In this document: piece after piece, positions 38,330 through 51,110 of the stretch | How the letters are laid out: each line of letters opens with the position of its first letter | How positions within the stretch are numbered: the stretch's first letter is position 1 | The notes under the pieces: generated by a model | Told to the model about the DNA's origin: nothing | Seen by the model: the letters and a program-made list of their open reading frames with translations, nothing else | Database searches by the model: none | Assembly: GCA_022844475.1 (NCBI GenBank) | Contig: JALHLR010000016.1 | Span: forward strand, 1-64,000 | DNA from: Hyphomonadaceae bacterium | GTDB taxonomy: Bacteria; Pseudomonadota; Alphaproteobacteria; Caulobacterales; Hyphomonadaceae | DNA: 64,000 bases | Reading direction: 5' to 3' | Translations under genes and position numbers: made by a program

Positions 38330-38754
38330 TGTCGACGCATTCGGGGCGCTGCCTCTGCGGGGCCATCACTTACACCGGCAGGGGCGACTTCATCATGCAG
38401 GTCTGCCACTGCGCCAGCTGCCGGCGCTGGACAGGCAGCCCCGCCATGACGCTGACCTTCGCCGCTGGCATCAACATAGAGACACCTGCGAGCATTCGCT
38501 GGCATCGCTCCTCGGAGTGGGCCGAGCGAGGCTCCTGCACCGCATGCGGTACGACCCTGTTCTACCGTCTGGTCGATGGCGACTATATCAACGTGTCGGC
38601 CGGAAGCCTCGATGATCAGGGCGCGATCAGGCAGATCGACGAGCATGTCTTCATCGACGAGAAGCCGGCGCACTACGACTTTTCCGGCAATGCCCCGCGC
38701 GTGACAGGCGCAGAGGTCGTTGCCCGCTTCCAGCCACCGGGCGAGCCTTCATGA
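38329..38754 (+). CDS. GFA-family zinc-binding protein
   Basis: This is a 141-residue protein of the glutathione-dependent formaldehyde-activating enzyme (GFA/Gfa-like) family. The zinc-binding cysteines are visible: GRCLCGAITY, CHCASCRRW, SCTACGTTLF. Members are often of unknown substrate, and a role in formaldehyde detoxification should not be assumed. Its start overlaps the preceding stop and its end overlaps the gltB start as ATGA, so it is embedded in the glutamate synthase operon. Confidence 0.85.
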   Translation: MSTHSGRCLCGAITYTGRGDFIMQVCHCASCRRWTGSPAMTLTFAAGINIETPASIRWHRSSEWAERGSCTACGTTLFYRLVDGDYINVSAGSLDDQGAIRQIDEHVFIDEKPAHYDFSGNAPRVTGAEVVARFQPPGEPS

Positions 38755-41700
38755 CACACGAAAAAGCCGGCCAGGAATGGCTCGAACGCTACACGGAACA
38801 GCGCGACGCGCTGATCGCGGCCAATGCCTACGACCCCGCCGACGAGAAGGACTCATGCGGCGTCGGCCTTGTGGCGCAGATCGATGGAACGCCGCGCCGC
38901 GAAATCGTCGAGATGGCGATCCGCGCGCTGAAGGCGGTCTACCACCGCGGCGCGGTTGACGCCGATGGCAAGACCGGTGATGGCGCAGGCATCCGTGTCG
39001 ATGTTCCGCAGGACTTCTTCCGCGACGCCGTGCGCGGCATGGGCCACACGATCAGCGACGACCGGCAGGTCTGCGTCGGCCAGATCTTCCTGCCCCGCAC
39101 CGATCTCGCAGCACAGGAAAAAGCCCGTTCGATCATCGAGACAGAGGTCGTGCACTTCGGCTTCTACATCTATGGCTGGCGCCAGCCGCCGATCGACACA
39201 TCGGTCATCGGCATGAAAGCGAACGCCACGCGGCCCGAGATCGAGCAGATCCTGTTCTCCGATCAGCTGAAGCGCGAGCCGGCAGAGCTGGAACGCGCGC
39301 TCTACATCTGTCGCCGCCGGATCGAGAACCGGGCGCGCGCCTCGAACCTCGACCTCTATCTCTGCTCGTTCTCCTCGCGGGCGCTGATCTACAAGGGCAT
39401 GTTCCTCGCCCAGGACATCGACGCCTTCTATCTCGACCTGAAGGATCCGCGATTCGTCTCCGCCGTCGCGATCTACCACCAGCGCTATTCGACCAACACC
39501 TTCCCGCAATGGCGCCTCGCCCAGCCCTTCCGGATGCTTGCACACAATGGCGAGATCAACACGATTTCGGGCAACATCAACTGGATGAAGAGCCACGAGA
39601 TCAAGATGGTCTCGGACGTGTTCGGCGAGCATGGCGATGATGTGAAGCCCGTGATCCAGCCGGGCGGATCGGATTCAGCTGCGCTCGACAATGCGTTTGA
39701 ATTGCTGGTGCGCGCCGGCCGCCCAGGCCCAATGGCGAAAACCCTCCTCGTCCCCGAGCCGCTTGCGCGCGATGAGCGCATCATGCCGCGTGCGCACCAG
39801 GCGCTTTATGCCTACGCCAACTCGGTGATGGAGCCATGGGACGGTCCGGCGGCCCTCGCCATGTTCGACGGCCGCTGGGCCATCGCCGGCATGGACCGCA
39901 ACGGCCTGCGCCCCATGCGCTTTGCGCTCACGGAAGATGGCGTGCTCGCAGTCGGCTCCGAGGCCGGCATGTGCTCGATCAACGAAGAGATCATCACGCG
40001 CAAGGGCCGCGTTCCGCCCGGCGGCATGATCGCCGTCGATGTGCGCGACGGGAAGTTCTACGAACACACGGCGCTGATCGACCGTCTCGCGAGCAGCCAC
40101 CCATACGAGCAGTGGCTGTCCAACGTCGTCGAACTGGAGCCCGTGATCGGCCCCGGTCCCGAGCAGCGCCTCTATGCCGAGCGTTCGGAGTTCCTGCGCC
40201 GCCAGCACGCGGCCGGCTTCACGATGGAAGACGTCGAGCTGATCCTCTCGCCCATGGCAGAAGACGGCAAGGAAGCCATTGGCTCGATGGGCGATGACAG
40301 CCCCCTCGCCGTCCTCTCGGACGTTCACCGTCCGCTGTCGCACTTCTTCCGGCAGAACTTCGCACAGGTCACCAACCCGCCGATCGATCCGCTGCGCGAG
40401 GAACGGGTGATGAGCCTGCGGACGCGCTTCAAGAACCTCGGCAACATCCTCGCGCAGGATGCGACGCAGACCAATGTCTTCGTCCTGGAGAGCCCCGTCC
40501 TCACAAACGGCATGTATACGCGCATGCTGGAGACGATTGGCGAACAGGTCGCCGTCATCGACTGCACCTTCTCTGTTTCGGGCCCGGCCGATTCCGCGGG
40601 CTCACCGGGCATCGCCCTGCGTGATGCGGTCGCCCGCATCCGTGAAGAAGCGCGCGTCGCCGTCTCCTCCGGCCGCGGCCACATCATCCTGACCGATGAG
40701 GGCCAGAGCGCGGATCGCGCCGGCATCCCGATGATCCTCGCCGCCGGCGCCGTTCACTCATGGCTGGTCAGCCACGGCCTGCGCACCTTCTGCTCGATCA
40801 CAGTCCGCTCGGCCGAGTGCATGGACACGCACTACTTCGCGGTGCTCGTCGGCGTCGGCGCGACCTGCGTCAACGCGTACATGGCGCAGGAAACGCTGGC
40901 AGACCGTCACGCCAGGGGACTGTTCGGCGACAAGGCCCTCGGCCAGATCGTGCTGAACTACAAGAAATCCATCGAGGCGGGCCTGCTCAAGATTCTCTCC
41001 AAGATGGGAATTTCGGTCATCTCGTCCTATCGCGGCGGCTATAACTTCGAGGCGCTCGGCCTCTCCCGCGCGCTCGTGGCCGACTACTTCCCCGGCATGA
41101 CCAGCCGCATCTCCGGCATCGGCCTCGCGGGACTGCAACGCAAGGCGATCGACCTGCATGCAAAGGCCTGGGGCGCCTCCGTCGCCGTGCTGCCGATCGG
41201 CGGCTTCTACCGCGTCCGCGCAAGCGGCGACACGCACGCCCTCTCGGGCGAGCTGATCCATGCGCTGCAGCACGCCTGCGACACCAACTCCTACGCCGCC
41301 TTCCGCAAGTATTCGAAACTCGCGAACGCGAAGAAGAAGATGGTGCAGCTGCGCGACCTGCTCGACTTCAAGCCGCAGCCAAAACCGGCCTCGTTGCACG
41401 ATGTCCAGTCGGTCAACGAGATCCGCAAGCGCTTCGTCACGCCAGGCATGTCGCTCGGTGCGCTGGGGCCAGAAGCACACGGCACGCTCAACATCGCCAT
41501 GAACCGCATCGGCGCGAAGTCCGTGTCCGGCGAGGGCGGCGAAGTACGCGAGCGCTACAAGCCGATGCCCAATGGCGACAACGCCAACTCGATGATCAAG
41601 CAGGTCGCCTCGGGCCGGTTCGGCGTCACCGCGGAGTATCTCAACAACTGCAAGGAGCTCGAGATCAAGGTCGCGCAGGGCGCCAAGCCCGGGGAAGGTG

Positions 41701-43304
41701 GCCAGCTGCCGGGATTCAAGGTCACGGAGTTCATCGCACGCAACCGCTATGCAACGCCCGGCGTCATGCTGATCTCGCCGCCGCCGCACCACGACATCTA
41801 TTCGATCGAGGACCTCGCCCAGCTCATCTACGACCTGAAGCAGATCAACCCGGACTGCCGCGTCTGCGTGAAACTCGTCTCGCGCTCCGGCGTCGGCACG
41901 ATCGCGGCAGGCGTTGCGAAAGCCAAGGCCGACGTCATCCTGATCTCCGGCCATGTCGGCGGCACCGGCGCCTCTCCCCAGTCGTCGATCAAGTTCGCCG
42001 GCCTGCCGTGGGAGATCGGGCTTGCCGAAGCCCACCACGTTCTGACACTCAACAACCTGCGCGACCAGGTCACGCTGCGCACCGATGGCGGCCTCCGCAC
42101 CGGGCGCGACATCGTGATGGCGGCAATGCTTGGCGCGGAAGAGTATGGCATCGGCACCGCCAGCCTGCTGGCCATGGGCTGCATCATGGTGCGCCAGTGC
42201 CATTCCAACACCTGCCCCGTCGGCGTCTGCACGCAGGACGAACGCCTGCGCGCGAAGTTCACCGGCACGGCGGACAAGGTCGTCAACCTGATGACCTTCA
42301 TCGCCGAGGAAGTGCGTGAGGTCCTCGCCGAGCTTGGCTTCACACGCCTCGACGAGGTGATCGGTCGCACCGATCTGCTGCATCAGGTCTCGCGCGGTTC
42401 GGCGATGCTCGACGACCTCGACCTGTCACCGCTGCTTGTGCGCGCCGACCCGACAGCGAAAGTCACCTACAAGCCGACGCTTCGCAACGAGGTGCCCGAC
42501 GCGCTGGATGAGCAGATCCTTCGCGACGGAGCGCCCTTCTTCGAGCGCGGCGAGAAGATGCAGCTCGACTATCACGTCAGGAATACGCAGCGCGCCATCG
42601 GCACGCGCGCCTCGTCTCACATCGTGCGCAAGTACGGCATGGACGGCCTTCCCGAGGATCGTCTCTGGGTGACGCTGGAAGGCTCGTGCGGCCAGTCGCT
42701 CGGCGCCTTCGGCGTCAAGGGCCTGACGCTCGAGGTCGTGGGGGACGCCAACGATTATGTCGGCAAGGGCCTGTCAGGCGCGACCATCATCATCAGGCCG
42801 CCATCGACCGCAAGGTTTGCCGCGAAGGACAACACCATCATCGGCAATACGGTTCTCTACGGCGCAACCTCCGGCAATCTCTTCGCCGCAGGTCAGGCAG
42901 GCGAGCGCTTCGCCGTACGCAATTCCGGCGCGACGGTCGTGGTCGAGGGTTGCGGATCCAATGGCTGCGAATACATGACCGGCGGTACGGCCGTGATCCT
43001 CGGCGCGGTCGGCCAGAATTTCGGCGCCGGCATGACGGGGGGCATGGCCTTCGTCTACGATCCGCAGGAGCGGTTTGCGCTGATGGCGAACGCCGAGACC
43101 ATTCTCTGGCGTCCCGTGGTCACCGATCACTGGAGCAAGGTGCTGCACGACCTCATCGCGGAGCACGTGAAGCGTACTGGCTCGCTTCAGGGCAGGACCA
43201 TCCTCGCCAACTGGCAGCTGGAGCTACGCAATTTCGTTCACGTCGTGCCCAGGGAATCGGTTGCGCGACTGGCAGCGCCACTGGAGCTGAAGGCCGCGGA
43301 ATGA
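38751..43304 (+). CDS. gltB: Glutamate synthase large subunit
   Basis: GltB combines a glutaminase domain, which releases ammonia from glutamine, with an FMN/iron-sulfur synthase domain. The 1517-residue protein has a 35-residue propeptide before the mature N-terminal Cys36 (KDSCGVGL). It contains the synthase signature KLVSRSGVGTIAAGVAKAKAD and GHVGGTGASP, the 3Fe-4S cysteines QCHSNTCPVGVC, and a C-terminal beta-helix (GATIIIRPP, GATVVVEGCGSNGCEY). The length is normal. Its ATG overlaps the GFA stop by four bases. Confidence 0.97.
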   Translation: MTHEKAGQEWLERYTEQRDALIAANAYDPADEKDSCGVGLVAQIDGTPRREIVEMAIRALKAVYHRGAVDADGKTGDGAGIRVDVPQDFFRDAVRGMGHTISDDRQVCVGQIFLPRTDLAAQEKARSIIETEVVHFGFYIYGWRQPPIDTSVIGMKANATRPEIEQILFSDQLKREPAELERALYICRRRIENRARASNLDLYLCSFSSRALIYKGMFLAQDIDAFYLDLKDPRFVSAVAIYHQRYSTNTFPQWRLAQPFRMLAHNGEINTISGNINWMKSHEIKMVSDVFGEHGDDVKPVIQPGGSDSAALDNAFELLVRAGRPGPMAKTLLVPEPLARDERIMPRAHQALYAYANSVMEPWDGPAALAMFDGRWAIAGMDRNGLRPMRFALTEDGVLAVGSEAGMCSINEEIITRKGRVPPGGMIAVDVRDGKFYEHTALIDRLASSHPYEQWLSNVVELEPVIGPGPEQRLYAERSEFLRRQHAAGFTMEDVELILSPMAEDGKEAIGSMGDDSPLAVLSDVHRPLSHFFRQNFAQVTNPPIDPLREERVMSLRTRFKNLGNILAQDATQTNVFVLESPVLTNGMYTRMLETIGEQVAVIDCTFSVSGPADSAGSPGIALRDAVARIREEARVAVSSGRGHIILTDEGQSADRAGIPMILAAGAVHSWLVSHGLRTFCSITVRSAECMDTHYFAVLVGVGATCVNAYMAQETLADRHARGLFGDKALGQIVLNYKKSIEAGLLKILSKMGISVISSYRGGYNFEALGLSRALVADYFPGMTSRISGIGLAGLQRKAIDLHAKAWGASVAVLPIGGFYRVRASGDTHALSGELIHALQHACDTNSYAAFRKYSKLANAKKKMVQLRDLLDFKPQPKPASLHDVQSVNEIRKRFVTPGMSLGALGPEAHGTLNIAMNRIGAKSVSGEGGEVRERYKPMPNGDNANSMIKQVASGRFGVTAEYLNNCKELEIKVAQGAKPGEGGQLPGFKVTEFIARNRYATPGVMLISPPPHHDIYSIEDLAQLIYDLKQINPDCRVCVKLVSRSGVGTIAAGVAKAKADVILISGHVGGTGASPQSSIKFAGLPWEIGLAEAHHVLTLNNLRDQVTLRTDGGLRTGRDIVMAAMLGAEEYGIGTASLLAMGCIMVRQCHSNTCPVGVCTQDERLRAKFTGTADKVVNLMTFIAEEVREVLAELGFTRLDEVIGRTDLLHQVSRGSAMLDDLDLSPLLVRADPTAKVTYKPTLRNEVPDALDEQILRDGAPFFERGEKMQLDYHVRNTQRAIGTRASSHIVRKYGMDGLPEDRLWVTLEGSCGQSLGAFGVKGLTLEVVGDANDYVGKGLSGATIIIRPPSTARFAAKDNTIIGNTVLYGATSGNLFAAGQAGERFAVRNSGATVVVEGCGSNGCEYMTGGTAVILGAVGQNFGAGMTGGMAFVYDPQERFALMANAETILWRPVVTDHWSKVLHDLIAEHVKRTGSLQGRTILANWQLELRNFVHVVPRESVARLAAPLELKAAE

Positions 43305-43477: not shown

Positions 43478-43789
43478 TTATCGCCAGGGCGACTTTACCG
43501 AGTAGGCATCCTCATCCACCGGCGCGGCCGGCGCGGTCTGTACCGAGAAGGTTTCACCGCCGGGAATACTGAACCCTGCGATCTGCTTCGGCGGCACGAT
43601 CTCGAAGCCGAGCCCGTGGAACAGGGCCATGAAGCCGACGAACGACAGGACTGTCGTCGCGATCACCTGCGCGATCACGCGCGTGATCAGCCCCCGGAAG
43701 AAGAACGCAGCGCTCAGCGCGGCGACTGTGCTGCCCCCAAGGCCGGCCATGCCAGCCACCGTCGCAAGATCGAGATCAATGCCGCCCAT
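43478..43789 (-). CDS. Small membrane protein near the Anbu cluster
   Basis: I do not recognise this 103-residue protein. It has about two membrane helices (VAGMAGLGGSTVAALSAAFFF and IAQVIATTVLSFVGFMALF) and a periplasmic or cytoplasmic Pro-rich C terminus. It lies 175 bases downstream of the DUF2233 gene in the same direction, so it may belong to the same transcript, and it is convergent with gltB. Confidence 0.6.
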   Translation of the reverse strand: MGGIDLDLATVAGMAGLGGSTVAALSAAFFFRGLITRVIAQVIATTVLSFVGFMALFHGLGFEIVPPKQIAGFSIPGGETFSVQTAPAAPVDEDAYSVKSPWR

Positions 43790-43964: not shown

Positions 43965-44723
43965 TCAAGGGGACGTGACGACAACCATCGGTCCGAGATT
44001 GCGCCCGGCATCCAGCCTGTCCAGGGACGGCGCCCACAGGCTCGACACGGCGCCATCGAAGTAGAGCGCGTCGTCACACTTCAGCTGGTCGCGATACAGC
44101 CGCGCCAGCTTGCCGAACGACACCGGCGCATCGCTGATCACGAACAACGCATCGCCCGCATCAGTCACACCGACGCCGTTGCGGATATGGCGTGACTCCC
44201 CGTCATGGTCGAATTTCGGATGCAGCTTTCCATCGACCACCAGCATGGGTCCCGACTGCGTCGCCCAGGCGGGCTTCGGCTTCTGCGCGACCCAGGCCTC
44301 CGTTGCGGTCACGTGCATGCTGCCATCGCCGCCGATCCAGAACACGCCATTCGGCTTGAGGTGAAAATTGCCGTACCCGTCGCGCGTGTTGACCGCCTTC
44401 AGCTGGCGGCCGTTCTCGACATAAAGACCGATCGGCGCGCCGCGGACATCGAACATTCCTGCATTCATCGCAAAGCGCACCTGGTCCGCCGCCTCGCCGA
44501 GGTCGCGCTTCAGCAGGGAAAGTCGCCGATGCGGCTTGCCATCGGGCCCGCGCAGCGACAGCGCAATCCTGTCCTCGCCGGGCCTCGCCGTGCAGACAGT
44601 GAAGCCGTCGCCCTCGAAGGTCAGCGATACACACGGTGCATCGCTCGCCTGCGCTGCGCCATCGGGCGAAGCCGACAGAAGCGCAATGAACAGAACAGCC
44701 AGCCCGGCGCGGATGAATCCCAT
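43965..44723 (-). CDS. DUF2233 (NAGPA-like phosphodiester glycosidase) exported protein
   Basis: This is a 252-residue protein with a signal peptide (LAVLFIALLSASPDGAAQAS). The DUF2233 domain is visible in MNAGMFDVRGAPIGLYVENG, NFHLKPNGVFWI, TQSGPMLVVDGKLHP and ALYFDGAVSSLWAP, as in the alpha-N-acetylglucosaminidase that uncovers mannose-6-phosphate and related bacterial phosphodiester glycosidases. It may hydrolyse sugar phosphodiesters in the periplasm, perhaps on wall polymers. The gene begins 39 bases after the Anbu stop and appears to be part of the same operon. Confidence 0.8.
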   Translation of the reverse strand: MGFIRAGLAVLFIALLSASPDGAAQASDAPCVSLTFEGDGFTVCTARPGEDRIALSLRGPDGKPHRRLSLLKRDLGEAADQVRFAMNAGMFDVRGAPIGLYVENGRQLKAVNTRDGYGNFHLKPNGVFWIGGDGSMHVTATEAWVAQKPKPAWATQSGPMLVVDGKLHPKFDHDGESRHIRNGVGVTDAGDALFVISDAPVSFGKLARLYRDQLKCDDALYFDGAVSSLWAPSLDRLDAGRNLGPMVVVTSP

Positions 44724-44762
44724 GGATCGCTGATGCCCGTGAAATCCGGCGGTTGTGTGGAG

Positions 44763-45497
44763 TTACAGCTTCACGCTCGGCAGGTTCATGAACGCTGTCT
44801 TGAGCGAGGCAGCCCAGCTGTCGCTGATCTGGCGGAACTCCTTGTGGTCGCTTTCGATGCGCTGCGTCTGCGCCCTCATCGTGTCCACCGGAATGACGCA
44901 GAGGTCGAGCGGCATGCCCACCGACAGGTTGGAACGCAGCGTCGAATCCATCGAGACAAGCACCGCCTTCACTGCATCGTCGATCGAGGTGTCCGGCCTG
45001 ATCACGCGATCGAGGATCGGTTTGCCATACTTGTGCTCGCCGATCTGGAGATAGGGGGTGTCCTCCCCCGCCTCGATGAAATTCCCTGCCGTGTAGATCA
45101 GGAACAGGCGGAGCTCTCCGCCCCTGCGCTGACCAGCCATGATGATGGTGGCGTTCGCCGCTGCGCCCTGCGCTTCGATCTCGGCGCGGTCACGCTTCTG
45201 GATCTCGCGCATCGCTTCACCGACGAGCTGGGCTGCGCGATAGAGCGTGTCGCAGGTCATGACGCTCTCGATTTCCGGGTCGATCTTCGCGCGCTTCACC
45301 GCCGCCCCGATATGCGTCACCACGCCCTGCGTGATGCCGAGATTGCCCGCGCACATCAGCGTCACGACGCGCTCGCCCGGCTCCTCGAACACGAACATCT
45401 TGCGGAAGCGCGCGATGTTGTCGACGCCCGCATTGGTGCGCGTGTCCGACAGTAGCACGAGGCCAGCCTTGAGCTTGAGGCCAACGCAATAAGTCAT
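44763..45497 (-). CDS. Anbu, proteasome-like peptidase (HslV-related)
   Basis: Anbu is a bacterial homologue of the proteasome beta subunit, predicted to form oligomers with an N-terminal nucleophile. The 244-residue protein begins MTYCVGLKLKAGLVLLSDTRTNAG, so the nucleophile would be Thr2. It has the family features LMCAGNLGITQGVVTH and FLIYTAGNFIEAGEDTPYLQIGEHKYGKPILDR. It is the fourth gene in a minus-strand operon with ATP-grasp, alpha-E and transglutaminase-like genes, and starts 44 bases after the latter. Confidence 0.9.
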   Translation of the reverse strand: MTYCVGLKLKAGLVLLSDTRTNAGVDNIARFRKMFVFEEPGERVVTLMCAGNLGITQGVVTHIGAAVKRAKIDPEIESVMTCDTLYRAAQLVGEAMREIQKRDRAEIEAQGAAANATIIMAGQRRGGELRLFLIYTAGNFIEAGEDTPYLQIGEHKYGKPILDRVIRPDTSIDDAVKAVLVSMDSTLRSNLSVGMPLDLCVIPVDTMRAQTQRIESDHKEFRQISDSWAASLKTAFMNLPSVKL

Positions 45498-45541
45498 GTG
45501 CCGCCCGATCTCCGGCCAGTTCCGGCGAACATCCGACCCCC

Positions 45542-46381
45542 CTATTGCTGGGTCTGCCCGTCCTGATTCTGGGTCTGAGACTGGCCCGGCGTCTGGGCAA
45601 TGTCGACCGAGGCGCTAAGTCGCTCCTTCGGTCCGCCCGAGACATTGCCGCGAATCGGGGCTGCATCTGCGGCATCGAGGCCACACCCGAGCCGCACATA
45701 GCGATCTGTCGGGCACAGCCGGTTCGAGGCATCAAACCCGACCCAGCCGATATCCGGCGCCCATGCCTCGGCCCACGCATGCGTCTCCGTCAGTTTCGTG
45801 TCCGACGCGAGGAGGTAACCCACGACATAGCGCGCCGGGAACTTCAGGGCGCGGGCTGCAGCGATGAAGACATGCGCATGGTCCTGGCAGACGCCATGCC
45901 CCGCTTTCAGCGCTTGCGCCGCCGTGGTCGATGACGAGGTCGCGCCCGGCTTGTAGGCCACTGCATCCGCGACCGCGTTGAACAGTCCGTGCATCCGGTC
46001 CAGCGCCTTGGCGCCCGTGATGCTCGCGGCAAGCTCCTCGATCCGCTTGTCAGTCTCGGTCAGCGGCGTCGGGCGCAGATAGACCTGCGGCCGCACCGTA
46101 TCCTTCAGGCCCTTGACCACACCTGCCGCATCGTGCGTCTCGATCTCGCCCTCGGCGACGATGGCGACCTCCGCGCCACCCGCCGCCGCCGTCCAGATCG
46201 ACTCGCGATCACCCGTCGCTGTCGACAGCAGCGGGGGAACGACCTGCCCGTTGACGCTGACCTTCCAGGCGATCACCCGCTGGCTGTCAAAGCCCGGGGG
46301 GTACAGGCGCAGGCGCAGCGCACATCGCTCCGCGGGCGGGTCATAGGCATAGGTCGTCGCGTGTCTGATCGAGAGCCGCAT
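45542..46381 (-). CDS. Transglutaminase-like cysteine protease domain protein
   Basis: This is a 279-residue protein with an N-terminal beta-sandwich region (MRLSIRHATTYAYDPPAERCALRLRLYPP) and a transglutaminase-core domain. The catalytic triad is readable: Cys165 in GHGVCQDHAH, His201 in ETHAWAEAW and Asp217 in VGFDASN. Such bacterial proteins act as proteases or peptide-cutting/crosslinking enzymes. The gene starts 2 bases after the alpha-E stop and lies upstream of Anbu. Confidence 0.9.
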   Translation of the reverse strand: MRLSIRHATTYAYDPPAERCALRLRLYPPGFDSQRVIAWKVSVNGQVVPPLLSTATGDRESIWTAAAGGAEVAIVAEGEIETHDAAGVVKGLKDTVRPQVYLRPTPLTETDKRIEELAASITGAKALDRMHGLFNAVADAVAYKPGATSSSTTAAQALKAGHGVCQDHAHVFIAAARALKFPARYVVGYLLASDTKLTETHAWAEAWAPDIGWVGFDASNRLCPTDRYVRLGCGLDAADAAPIRGNVSGGPKERLSASVDIAQTPGQSQTQNQDGQTQQ

Positions 46382-46383
46382 GG

Positions 46384-47319
46384 TCAGAAGTGATACGCCT
46401 TGCTGATTTCGAAGGACAGCCGCCGCGTCGTGGTGATCGCCTGCGACACGAACTCGTGCAGCCCGTGCTGGAACAATTCCTCGATACCGGTCCTGTCCAG
46501 CTGTTCCACCATCTGGCTCGCAACCGCCTGCGGCGACCCCCGCTCGCCATAGAGTTCGGCAAGGTCATCCAGGAAGCGGCTGATGGAACGGTAGCAATAG
46601 GCAACCGATCGCGGGAAAGCACTGTTGAGAATCAGAAAGTCTGCAATCCCCCACGGGGTGTAGTCGCCCTTGTAGACGTGGTGATAGGCGCGAAGGGCCG
46701 ATGTCGCCCGCAGCACGCTGGTCCACTGGTGATAGTCGCGTCCTCCGCCGACCACATCGGTCTCCGGCAGCAGCACATAGTATTTCACGTCGAGCAGCCG
46801 GAGCGTCATGTCCGCCCGCTCAATGAGTCCGCCCATCCGCAGGAAATAATAGCCGTCATTGCGCAGGAGCGAGATTTCCGACGCGCCCCGGAACGCCGCC
46901 GTCCGGTGCTTGGTCCACTCCAGCAGCGAGGGCAGGTTCTTCAGCGCCGTGTCGGCATCCATCTGGCCCAGCGATCGCCAGCCGTCATTCAGCGCTTCCC
47001 ACATGTCCTGCGTCAGCGCCGTACGGATCGCCCTCCCGTTGGCGCGCGCCGATGTGAGGCACGACCTGATCGAGGATGCATTGTCAGGATCAAGCAGCAG
47101 GCGCTGGACCACCGCGCTGGCGCTGAAATTCCTGGCGTCCGGATGCGCCAGCTCCGGCGCCGACCCGGACGCCGCCGCAACCGAACGCCACTCTTCCTGC
47201 TCGTTCGATCCGGGCAGCATCGCCATGCGATACCCCATCTCGATGAGGCGCGCGGTGGCATCCGCCCGCTCCATGTAACGGCCCATCCAGAACAGGTTTT
47301 CCGCGGTACGGCTCAGCAT
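46384..47319 (-). CDS. Alpha-E domain protein
   Basis: This is a 311-residue, almost entirely helical protein of the alpha-E family, named from its clustered genes. The N-terminal MLSRTAENLFWMGRYMERADATARLIE is diagnostic. In this gene neighbourhood it is thought to act with the ATP-grasp ligase, possibly as part of a peptide-bond-forming complex, but no activity is established. The ATG follows the ATP-grasp stop after a single base, so translation is probably coupled. Confidence 0.9.
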   Translation of the reverse strand: MLSRTAENLFWMGRYMERADATARLIEMGYRMAMLPGSNEQEEWRSVAAASGSAPELAHPDARNFSASAVVQRLLLDPDNASSIRSCLTSARANGRAIRTALTQDMWEALNDGWRSLGQMDADTALKNLPSLLEWTKHRTAAFRGASEISLLRNDGYYFLRMGGLIERADMTLRLLDVKYYVLLPETDVVGGGRDYHQWTSVLRATSALRAYHHVYKGDYTPWGIADFLILNSAFPRSVAYCYRSISRFLDDLAELYGERGSPQAVASQMVEQLDRTGIEELFQHGLHEFVSQAITTTRRLSFEISKAYHF

Positions 47320-47320
47320 G

Positions 47321-48727
47321 TCATTCCGCCAGAATCCACGTATCCTTGACCCCGCCGCCCTGCGAGGAGTTTACCACCAGCGACCCCTTCTTCAGCGCCA
47401 CGCGCGTCAGACCGCCCGGCGTCAGGCGGATGTCCTTGCCCACTAGGCAGTACGGCCGGAAGTCGACATGTCGCTCCTCCACGCCCTCGCTCCCGAGGAT
47501 CGGGGCTGTCGACAGATCCAGCGTCGGCTGCGCGATGAACTCGCTCGGATTCGCCCTGATCTTGGCGCGGAACGCCTCGATCTCCTTCTTTGTTGCGTGC
47601 GGGCCGATCAGCATGCCGTAGCCGCCTGACCCGTGCACGCGCTTCACGACGAGGTCCTTGAGGTTGTCGATGACATACTTGCAGTGGTCCGGCTCGGCGC
47701 AGCGCCATGTCTGGACATTCTCGAGGATCGGCTTTTCGCCGAGATAGAATTTGATCATGTCCGGCACGAAGACATAGATCGCCTTGTCGTCGGCAACCCC
47801 GGCCCCCGGCGCCGAGCACAGCGTCACGCCGCCCGAGCGATAGACGTCGAAGATGCCCGGCACGCCGAGCAGCGAATCCGCCTTGAAGGCCAGCGGGTCG
47901 ATATAGGTGTCGTCAATCCGTCGGTAGATGACGTCCACACGCTGCGGCCCGCGCGTCGTGCGCATCCAGCACAGCCCGTTCTCGACGAAGAGGTCCTGCG
48001 GCTCCACCAGCTCGATGCCCATCAGGTCGGCGAGGAAGGAGTGTTCGTAGTATGCCGAGTTCAGCGACCCTGGCGTCAGCAGCACCATCGTCGGATCATC
48101 ATCGCACTTGATCGGCGCGACTTCCTCCAGCGTCTTCTTCAGCAGGCTCGGATAGCTGTCGACGGCCTCGACGATGCCCGCCTGGAACAGCTGCGGAAAC
48201 ATCCGCATCATGATCTCGCGGTTCTCGAGCATGTAGGAGACGCCCGACGGCGTGCGGCAATTGTCCTCGAGCACCTGGAACCTGTCGCCATCGGTGCGCA
48301 CGATGTCCACGCCGACGATGTGGCTGTAGACCTTCCCCGGCGGATCGACGCCCACCATCTCCGGCAGGAAAGCCTCGTTCTGGTAGACCAGCTCTTCGGG
48401 CACCACGCCCGCCCGCATGATCTCGCCGCGGTGATAGACGTCATAGAGGAACGCGTTCAGCGCCCGGCTGCGCTGCTTGATTCCCCGCGACAGCTTGCGC
48501 CACTCGGCCGCCCCGAAGACGCGCGGGATCAGGTCGAACGGGATCAGTCGCTCGGGGTCGGCCCCTTCGCCATAAACGGCGAATGTGATCCCGATCTTGC
48601 GGAAGATCGCCTCCGCCTCGCTCTGGCGCAGGTTCAGCAGGTCAACGCCAGTCGCGTTGATCCATTCCGCGACCTTCTCGTAAGGACCCCGGACCGATCG
48701 ATCGTCAGCGAACATTTCGTTGTACAT
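47321..48727 (-). CDS. Circularly permuted ATP-grasp (type 2) putative peptide ligase
   Basis: This is a 468-residue member of the circularly permuted ATP-grasp family, predicted ATP-dependent amide ligases. Markers are DLIPRVFGAAEWRKLSRGIKQR and LYDVYHRGEIMRAG in the N-terminal half, VLEDNCRTPSGVSYMLENR, and LVVKRVHGSGGYGMLIGPHA for the nucleotide-binding part. It is the first gene of the alpha-E/transglutaminase/Anbu operon. The start is ATG 48727; no clear ribosome-binding site is visible and a downstream Met (MFADD) is possible. A 278-base divergent region separates it from the PAP2 gene. Confidence 0.9.
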   Translation of the reverse strand: MYNEMFADDRSVRGPYEKVAEWINATGVDLLNLRQSEAEAIFRKIGITFAVYGEGADPERLIPFDLIPRVFGAAEWRKLSRGIKQRSRALNAFLYDVYHRGEIMRAGVVPEELVYQNEAFLPEMVGVDPPGKVYSHIVGVDIVRTDGDRFQVLEDNCRTPSGVSYMLENREIMMRMFPQLFQAGIVEAVDSYPSLLKKTLEEVAPIKCDDDPTMVLLTPGSLNSAYYEHSFLADLMGIELVEPQDLFVENGLCWMRTTRGPQRVDVIYRRIDDTYIDPLAFKADSLLGVPGIFDVYRSGGVTLCSAPGAGVADDKAIYVFVPDMIKFYLGEKPILENVQTWRCAEPDHCKYVIDNLKDLVVKRVHGSGGYGMLIGPHATKKEIEAFRAKIRANPSEFIAQPTLDLSTAPILGSEGVEERHVDFRPYCLVGKDIRLTPGGLTRVALKKGSLVVNSSQGGGVKDTWILAE

Positions 48728-49005
48728 GCCAGCCCAGTCCTAGCGGGTGGAACCGCCATCGCGAAGCCACCCCGGTACGCCCATCCTCGCAGCAGACACC
48801 CCTGCTTAAACTTTGGGCAGACAAAGGAAATAGCCCGCAGCCGCTGCTGAGGCCAATCCTCTCAACAATTGGTGTCAGCGCCTGGCGCCGATCGCAATGG
48901 AACAGCCCCGTCCGCCTGCCCGTTCGCCACATGCAGCCCCCCTGGGCCCGAGGCAGGGCTCCCGTGATAGAAGGGGCTGCCCACAAGGCTCAGCAAGGAG
49001 GATGA

Positions 49006-49716: not shown

Positions 49717-49749
49717 CGACGGATCCTGACGACGGATCCTGACGACGGC
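49715..49749. repeat. 13-bp tandem repeat (2.7 copies)
   Basis: gacgacggatcct occurs twice in a row (49715-49727 and 49728-49740), followed by a partial third copy gacgacggc. The repeat starts inside the PAP2 stop codon and ends at the stop of the convergent gene; it probably arose by slippage. Confidence 0.75.
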
Positions 49750-50882
49750 TACTGCCTGCCCTTCGCGGGCTTGGCCCTGGCCGCTGCCTCCCGCGCCTCA
49801 AGCACACGCGCGCCTTCGAGAATGCCGTACAGCGCGTAGTTGCCTTCATGGCAGGCATACTCGTACATCTTGCCATTGAGCGCGGCGAACTCGTACTCGC
49901 CGCCCCACGGCGCATCCCACAGCGTCGGGTCCTCGATCGTGAAGCCGTAATAGAGCCGGTCGTCGGCCACGCGGCGGAAGCGCTCGGTGACTTTCAGGTC
50001 CTTCCACGATCCCATGAATTGCTGGCTCTGTGGAATGTGCGTGGTCTCCACCACCAGCGTGTCGCCCTCCCACCAGCCGATCGAATCCCCGAAATAGGGA
50101 CGCACGTCGTCGGTGCGGTGTTTCGAATTCAGCCGCACGATGCGAGCGTCATGCACCATCTCGGTCGCGATCACGACATGGTCCGGCGACTGCACGATCT
50201 GGTAGCTGTTGTTGTAGAACCCGTTGGCAAACATCGGCGGCCCGGCATTGCGCCCGAACGAGATGATGCAGCGCTCAGTCGCGCGCGATTCCGGATTGTC
50301 GAACGACTGCCCGCGCGGCGGCGTTGGCCCCAGCAGCTTCACGAAAGCCGGCGGCTCTGGCGCCGGAGCAGTCGTTGCGCCGGCCTTGCGCGGCGGCGCC
50401 GTTCCGGTCGGCGTCGTGATGATCGAGGAACGCGGCTGGCCGTTGACCCGCATCACATGGTTGCCGGGATCGATCCAGAACCGGTTGTACCCGCCGGTCG
50501 CCCCGCCGCCAGCGAGATACTCCGGCTTGATGTCTTTCGGGATGACGTATTCGGCCGGCGCATCCGCCGCGGTCGGCTCATTGCCTTCCTCGATTTCCTC
50601 GATCATCTCCTGTTCGATCCTGGCGACCTCTTCCTCTGTATAGACGAGGCTCTTCACACCGGCGGGACGCGTCATCTTTGTCAGCGTCGTGTTGTGCCAG
50701 AAGCCCTGCAGGTCGGGCTGCCCGATCTTCAGTTTCGGCGCCGCGTAGGGCGGGTAAGGCTTGGTCGGATCGTATTTCGGCGCGGCCTGCGCGGTCGGCG
50801 TCTGCGCCTGCGCGGCCGGGGCGCCGATGGCAAGCGCGATCGAAAGGGAAACGGCGATGGTGGCGAGCAGAGCGTGGCGCAA
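49749..50882 (-). CDS. Exported protein of an uncharacterised family
   Basis: This is a 377-residue protein with a signal peptide (LRHALLATIAVSLSIALAIGAPAAQAQ). The body contains QPDLQGFWHNTTLTKMTRP, an acidic stretch, PYFGDSIGWWEGDTLVVETTHI, FRRVADDRLYYGFTIEDPTLWDAPWGGEYEF and MYEYACHEGNYALYGILEGAR. This pattern is widespread in exported proteins of Acidobacteria and soil proteobacteria, but no function is known to me. The start is TTG 50882, eight bases after a clear aggag; the track's start adds 27 unconserved residues. Confidence 0.75.
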   Translation of the reverse strand: MRHALLATIAVSLSIALAIGAPAAQAQTPTAQAAPKYDPTKPYPPYAAPKLKIGQPDLQGFWHNTTLTKMTRPAGVKSLVYTEEEVARIEQEMIEEIEEGNEPTAADAPAEYVIPKDIKPEYLAGGGATGGYNRFWIDPGNHVMRVNGQPRSSIITTPTGTAPPRKAGATTAPAPEPPAFVKLLGPTPPRGQSFDNPESRATERCIISFGRNAGPPMFANGFYNNSYQIVQSPDHVVIATEMVHDARIVRLNSKHRTDDVRPYFGDSIGWWEGDTLVVETTHIPQSQQFMGSWKDLKVTERFRRVADDRLYYGFTIEDPTLWDAPWGGEYEFAALNGKMYEYACHEGNYALYGILEGARVLEAREAAARAKPAKGRQ

Positions 50883-51110
50883 GTCAATTCTCCTGCAGCA
50901 TGGGACGCGTCTAACTGCCCGAAGCGTAAAGGCCCGTCTCCGGGCCTGCAATGCGCGGCACATGTGCGCTGCGCGCCCGGTCAGCGCGAAGCCCGCTTCA
51001 ACGCTAGGTCAAGCTGTCGTCACGTCTGGGTGATTTCTGGGGCCTCGCGGCTTGCCGCAGCGCTGGCTGCGCCGCTTGCTCCTCACCACGCCTCTCGCTA
51101 GCAGTCGCGC

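Follow-up and report, generated by a model that had tools for sequence, protein, structure and literature searches.

The ATP-grasp, Alpha-E, transglutaminase and Anbu genes found in the window (the whole stretch of 64,000 nucleotides that was analysed) are the standard, already published Anbu operon, and this operon is probably under nitrogen control, with a 17-bp inverted repeat upstream of its first gene as the predicted NtrC operator. Anbu is a split-ring relative of the proteasome, and its function has been in question since 2008. The useful new element is the nitrogen operator; the extension of the system to a DUF2233 protein and a small membrane protein, proposed in a sequence-only reading of the same DNA, fails.

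The cluster lies co-directionally on the minus strand in the order ATP-grasp, Alpha-E, transglutaminase, Anbu, DUF2233 and an open reading frame of 103 amino acids, the intergenic gaps in the ORF list being 1, 2, 44, 39 and 175 bases. The first gene of the operon (47,321-48,727, minus strand) encodes an ATP-grasp protein of the circularly permuted type (CP_ATPgrasp_2, PF14403, 4.3e-162; PF04174, 5.6e-146), close to PDB entry 3n6x (2.8e-185), and the second (46,384-47,319, minus strand) an Alpha-E protein (PF04168, 3e-91), for which a PDB sequence search detected no solved relative. The product of the third gene (45,542-46,381, minus strand) is transglutaminase-like (Transglut_core PF01841, 2.9e-23; Bact_transglu_N PF08379, 3.8e-10; PDB 3isr, 1.2e-16) and carries the expected triad of Cys (GVCQD), His (THAW) and Asp (GFDASN). 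The fourth gene (44,763-45,497, minus strand) encodes Anbu, a proteasome beta-like Ntn hydrolase with a Pfam Proteasome match of 4e-6, which is close in the PDB sequence search to the solved Anbu chains 5loy (7e-80), 5nyj, 5nyw, 5nyf and 5lox. An alignment of 17 homologues shows no variation at Thr1, Asp17 or Lys32 of Anbu, the numbering of the catalytic residues (Thr1, Asp17, Lys32/33) being that of PMC6376114; Thr1 directly follows the Met, and there is no signal peptide. The same four genes in the same order make up the Anbu operon of Yersinia bercovieri and Pseudomonas, and this set and order are published (PMC6376114, PMC5666114), the operon having been described by Iyer et al. 2009 and Valas and Bourne 2008, as cited in PMC6376114. 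The block is kept throughout the genus and in the majority of the 80 named genomes, which bears out the earlier view of the four genes as one operon; their shared direction and gaps of 1, 2 and 44 bases, also part of that view, agree with the ORF list, and the gene identities with the Pfam and PDB matches.

Variants of the arrangement occur in relatives. At four loci (L071-L074, from genomes G021, G060, G056 and G025) the transglutaminase gene is outside the operon, Anbu directly follows Alpha-E, and a distant transglutaminase (27-34% identical) is encoded divergently upstream. At a locus of an uncultured Nitrosomonadales (L179), two Anbu-like genes flank one ATP-grasp/Alpha-E pair and a distant transglutaminase follows the second. 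In the window, a PAP2 gene diverges from the operon and shares its upstream region; further on, at 49,749-50,963 on the minus strand, lies a gene for a predicted exported protein of 404 residues with no match in Pfam or NCBIfam.

What the operon products do can be proposed only tentatively. The ATP-grasp protein, together with Alpha-E, and the transglutaminase would form or remodel amide or isopeptide bonds in the cytosol, and Anbu would hydrolyse the resulting product or conjugate, so that nitrogen would be recovered or stored. Such a cytosolic amide-bond cycle is conjectural and rather doubtful. In published assays the ATP-grasp protein showed ATP hydrolysis only, and no peptidase activity of Anbu was found (PMC6376114). 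It is unlikely that the ATP-grasp protein and the transglutaminase attach a peptide tag to proteins which Anbu then degrades in the manner of a proteasome. This scheme, which is compatible with nitrogen control, has already been proposed from gene context (reported in PMC6376114), and the catalytic residues of Anbu are intact; however, an AAA+ unfoldase is absent from the operon, and the published assays detected neither proteolysis by Anbu nor any interaction among the operon proteins (PMC6376114).

Alignment of 13 congeners identified one conserved element before the ATP-grasp gene, the 17-bp inverted repeat, with the consensus TGCCYAAANTTTRGGCA. In the window it occupies 48,803-48,819, reads TGCCCAAAGTTTAAGCA on the minus strand and is located at -92 to -76 from the ATP-grasp start codon. 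A strict pattern, TGCYYAAANTTTRRGCA with at most one mismatch, has a single match in the 3.17-Mb genome, namely the operon repeat, and a looser pattern also matched the dusB-ntrBC and amtB promoters. Given that the loose pattern gave 9 matches genome-wide against 21 for its reversed control, the pattern by itself is no evidence, and it is the matrix, the positions and the gene context that count. Genomes of the genus carry the repeat before nitrogen genes too: all 13 have it at -44 to -47 of dusB-ntrBC, 11 of 13 have it upstream of amtB (-159 to -168), and most of 8 have it upstream of glnBA (-130 to -165). The predicted operator is common to the Anbu operon and to the ntrBC, amtB and glnBA promoters of the same organisms.

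A symmetric matrix was trained on 27 distinct ntrBC, amtB and glnBA sites, with the Anbu sites left out. The top match to this matrix in the 64-kb window was the operon repeat, at 17.4, followed by a next best match of 7.4; the site is imperfect, scoring below the mean of the training sites (22.2) though within their span of 14.2 to 25.1. Each of the 12 congener loci has its best match between -90 and -108 relative to the ATP-grasp gene. Of 70 genomes outside the genus, 33 had a site scoring at least 10 within the 250 bases upstream of the operon, a count that overstates independence since the 70 are interrelated and many are Rhodobacteraceae; the other 37 have no high-scoring site there. Dinucleotide shuffles gave an expectation of 1.05 genomes with such a score, and control stretches reached it in 0.7% of cases. 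Among more distant relatives, Achromobacter, Tepidiphilus and one further proteobacterium have sigma54-type -24/-12 elements (TGGCACG-N4-TTGC) there instead.

Other upstream regions yielded separate observations. The dusB-ntrBC promoter on G000:C3 (L212, L252) has, at about -108, another and weaker copy, CGCCTCTAGATTGTGCA, with one mismatch to the loose pattern; 10 of 12 congeners have one in a comparable place, an arrangement suggestive of tandem autoregulatory sites. A site before a second gltB-like gene (C4:47781) was set aside, as its score was only 11.5 and it may be due to chance. No obvious nitrogen-type repeat was seen in the aligned upstream region of a third PII group (MKYVTAVFKPSRLDAV; L192-L199), where the congeners examined have a different conserved element, in most of them TGTTGAAnnTGTGTAAG...TGCAATATAT.

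The NtrC of this genome reads ELFGGGRDSNGKRRGKVSEADGGTLFLDE and is without GAFTGA. From these sequences we infer NtrC as the predicted binder of the repeat and activation of the operon under nitrogen shortage. NtrB-NtrC, whose NtrC has no sigma54-contact loop, would most likely bind at -92 to -76 and most likely switch the operon on at low glutamine; induction at nitrogen limitation is predicted because the repeat matches those of nitrogen-assimilation promoters. In this the operon differs from the known Anbu operon, its predicted operator being of the type associated with an NtrC that has no sigma54 loop. The NtrC of Caulobacter and of Rhodobacter capsulatus is also without GAFTGA according to PMC10274813, and the Caulobacter NtrC ChIP-seq peaks given there include glnBA, glnK-amtB and ntrB, the three promoters that were also used to train the matrix and that define the repeat here. 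This comparison is one of the same promoters and not a letter-by-letter match of motifs, and the Caulobacter regulon differs in that the available text names no Anbu operon as one of its targets (PMC10274813).

It could be argued that the repeat, although functional, acts on the gene that diverges upstream or has some other nitrogen-responsive regulator, for example NtrX, as its binder, and that the Anbu operon is outside NtrC control. The repeat does sit between divergent genes in the window, with PAP2 upstream, and its binder is a predicted one. However, this is quite improbable for three reasons: first, in three congeners (G002, G011 and G008) the neighbour is not PAP2, yet the repeat is found at -91 or -92 of the operon. 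Second, in the 33 genomes outside the genus that have the repeat before the operon, nearly all sites lie at -100 to -170. Third, the published NtrC binding in Caulobacter (PMC10274813) takes in the promoters from which the matrix was trained.

Control of the Anbu operon by NtrC is consistent with observations in other proteobacteria. The NtrC/sigma54 regulon of B. cenocepacia takes in DUF404/407, DUF403 and transglutaminase genes (PMC5491218), and the H111 cluster of these (I35_5080-83) shares three of the four gene families with the operon and is under NtrC control at nitrogen limitation, as predicted here; that cluster differs in that the available text names no Anbu in it, in having a second large transglutaminase-like protein and in its sigma54 promoter. 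In P. putida, Anbu is raised under nitrogen limitation (cited in PMC5666114), as is a transglutaminase-like gene cluster, PP2685-PP2689 (PMC3325844), and in marine metagenomes the abundances of DUF403/404/407 and Bact_transglu_N track those of urea-metabolism domains (PMC3597751). The text of a Paracoccus nitrate transcriptome does not mention these families. No paper combining Anbu and NtrC was found in the open literature searched, and the link of the operator to the Anbu operon in alphaproteobacteria appears to be a new element, unreported in that literature. A broader proposal, which falls a little short of an even chance, is that Anbu operons are a conserved NtrC output across the Proteobacteria, by way of sigma54 promoters in certain lineages and, in Hyphomonadaceae, Rhodobacteraceae and relatives, by way of an operator for an NtrC that acts independently of sigma54.

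The gene that follows Anbu (43,965-44,723, minus strand) encodes an exported protein of the DUF2233/NAGPA type (PF09992, 2.8e-24), PF09992 (NAGPA) presumably being the family earlier named DUF2233. That it begins 39 bases after Anbu, as first noted from the sequence, is correct, but the accompanying claim that it extends the Anbu system did not hold: DUF2233 is a clade-local neighbour and not a conserved member of the system. Anbu is present in all 15 genomes of the genus, whereas DUF2233 is present in 6 and adjoins Anbu in 4 (G000, G005, G004 and G009), a feature that the known Anbu operon lacks and that is confined here to a single clade in the tree of the operon. The junction of G009 falls between two contigs, both contig ends showing Anbu and then DUF2233; in G003 and G013 the DUF2233 gene is located away from Anbu. 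The adjacency was seen in none of the remaining 11 congeners, among which the G006 contig stops within the Anbu gene, and in none of the 13 relatives outside the genus that carry both genes; four relatives outside the genus have DUF2233 without any Anbu match. Among 80 named loci, surveyed over at most 8 kb per side (less at contig ends), none of the 77 from non-congeners has DUF2233 near Anbu, and the sole trace (L103) corresponds to the G009 contig. The slot 3' of Anbu is variable, being filled directly by gltB (G001, G014), by an opposite-strand GFA-type gene (G010, G012) or by other genes.

The regulatory evidence points the same way. In the matrix scan the nitrogen-type repeat was absent upstream of stand-alone DUF2233 genes, and within the window there was no match before the start of DUF2233 or of the membrane protein. 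By its distribution, and by the lack of this repeat before stand-alone copies, DUF2233 is ruled out as a member of the system; the suggested search for DUF2233 travelling with Anbu across lineages came out negative. The sequence-only reading had also held that an adjacency unique to this genome, with a promoter of its own for DUF2233, would reduce the cluster to the known four genes. This is what was found in spirit but not to the letter, the adjacency being that of a clade and a generic promoter and terminator scan having found neither element in the 39-base gap. DUF2233 is possibly transcribed by read-through from the Anbu operon. The N-terminus of DUF2233 is a signal peptide, in some congeners a lipoprotein signal, and Anbu has none, which makes a shared compartment unlikely.

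The small membrane protein of 103 residues (43,478-43,789, minus strand) goes with gltB, the gene named from its sequence as that of the glutamate synthase large subunit (38,751-43,304, plus strand), which is convergent with the cluster. G013, G003, G023 and G020 have a homologue of the small protein at the 3' end of gltB, and G007 has one 5.6 kb from gltB, with Anbu elsewhere in all five; homologues also occur in G028 and G035, neither of which has an Anbu match. The earlier suggestion of a sixth operon member is ruled out, since the protein accompanies gltB also where Anbu is elsewhere. In most congeners where the small protein and Anbu are near one another, an opposite-strand GFA-type gene separates them. 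This GFA-type gene (CHCG motif, named from sequence) is kept beside the small protein near gltB in the genus (L059, L060, L062, L063, L068, L095-L097) and is missing at the window locus. A general linkage of Anbu and gltB was likewise rejected, the two being neighbours in some congeners but widely separated in others, and the matrix has no match before gltB in the window. A system of five or six genes, with DUF2233 and the membrane protein joining Anbu in acting on a target that is exported or in the cell wall, has in its favour the short same-strand gap in which no separate promoter or terminator was found and the gene order shared by four species of one clade, but is highly improbable in view of the missing adjacency elsewhere, the DUF2233 genes that occur without Anbu or the repeat, the different compartments expected and the association of the membrane protein with gltB.

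With DUF2233 and the small membrane protein set apart from the system, no target in the cell wall need be sought on weak evidence. Should the operon prove to be a dedicated target of nitrogen limitation, the earlier negative assays may reflect the wrong growth condition and the wrong substrate class, and the function of Anbu becomes directly testable. Furthermore, if NtrC control of Anbu operons does extend across the Proteobacteria, Anbu would be a nitrogen-scavenging or nitrogen-storage machine and not a protease of protein quality control.
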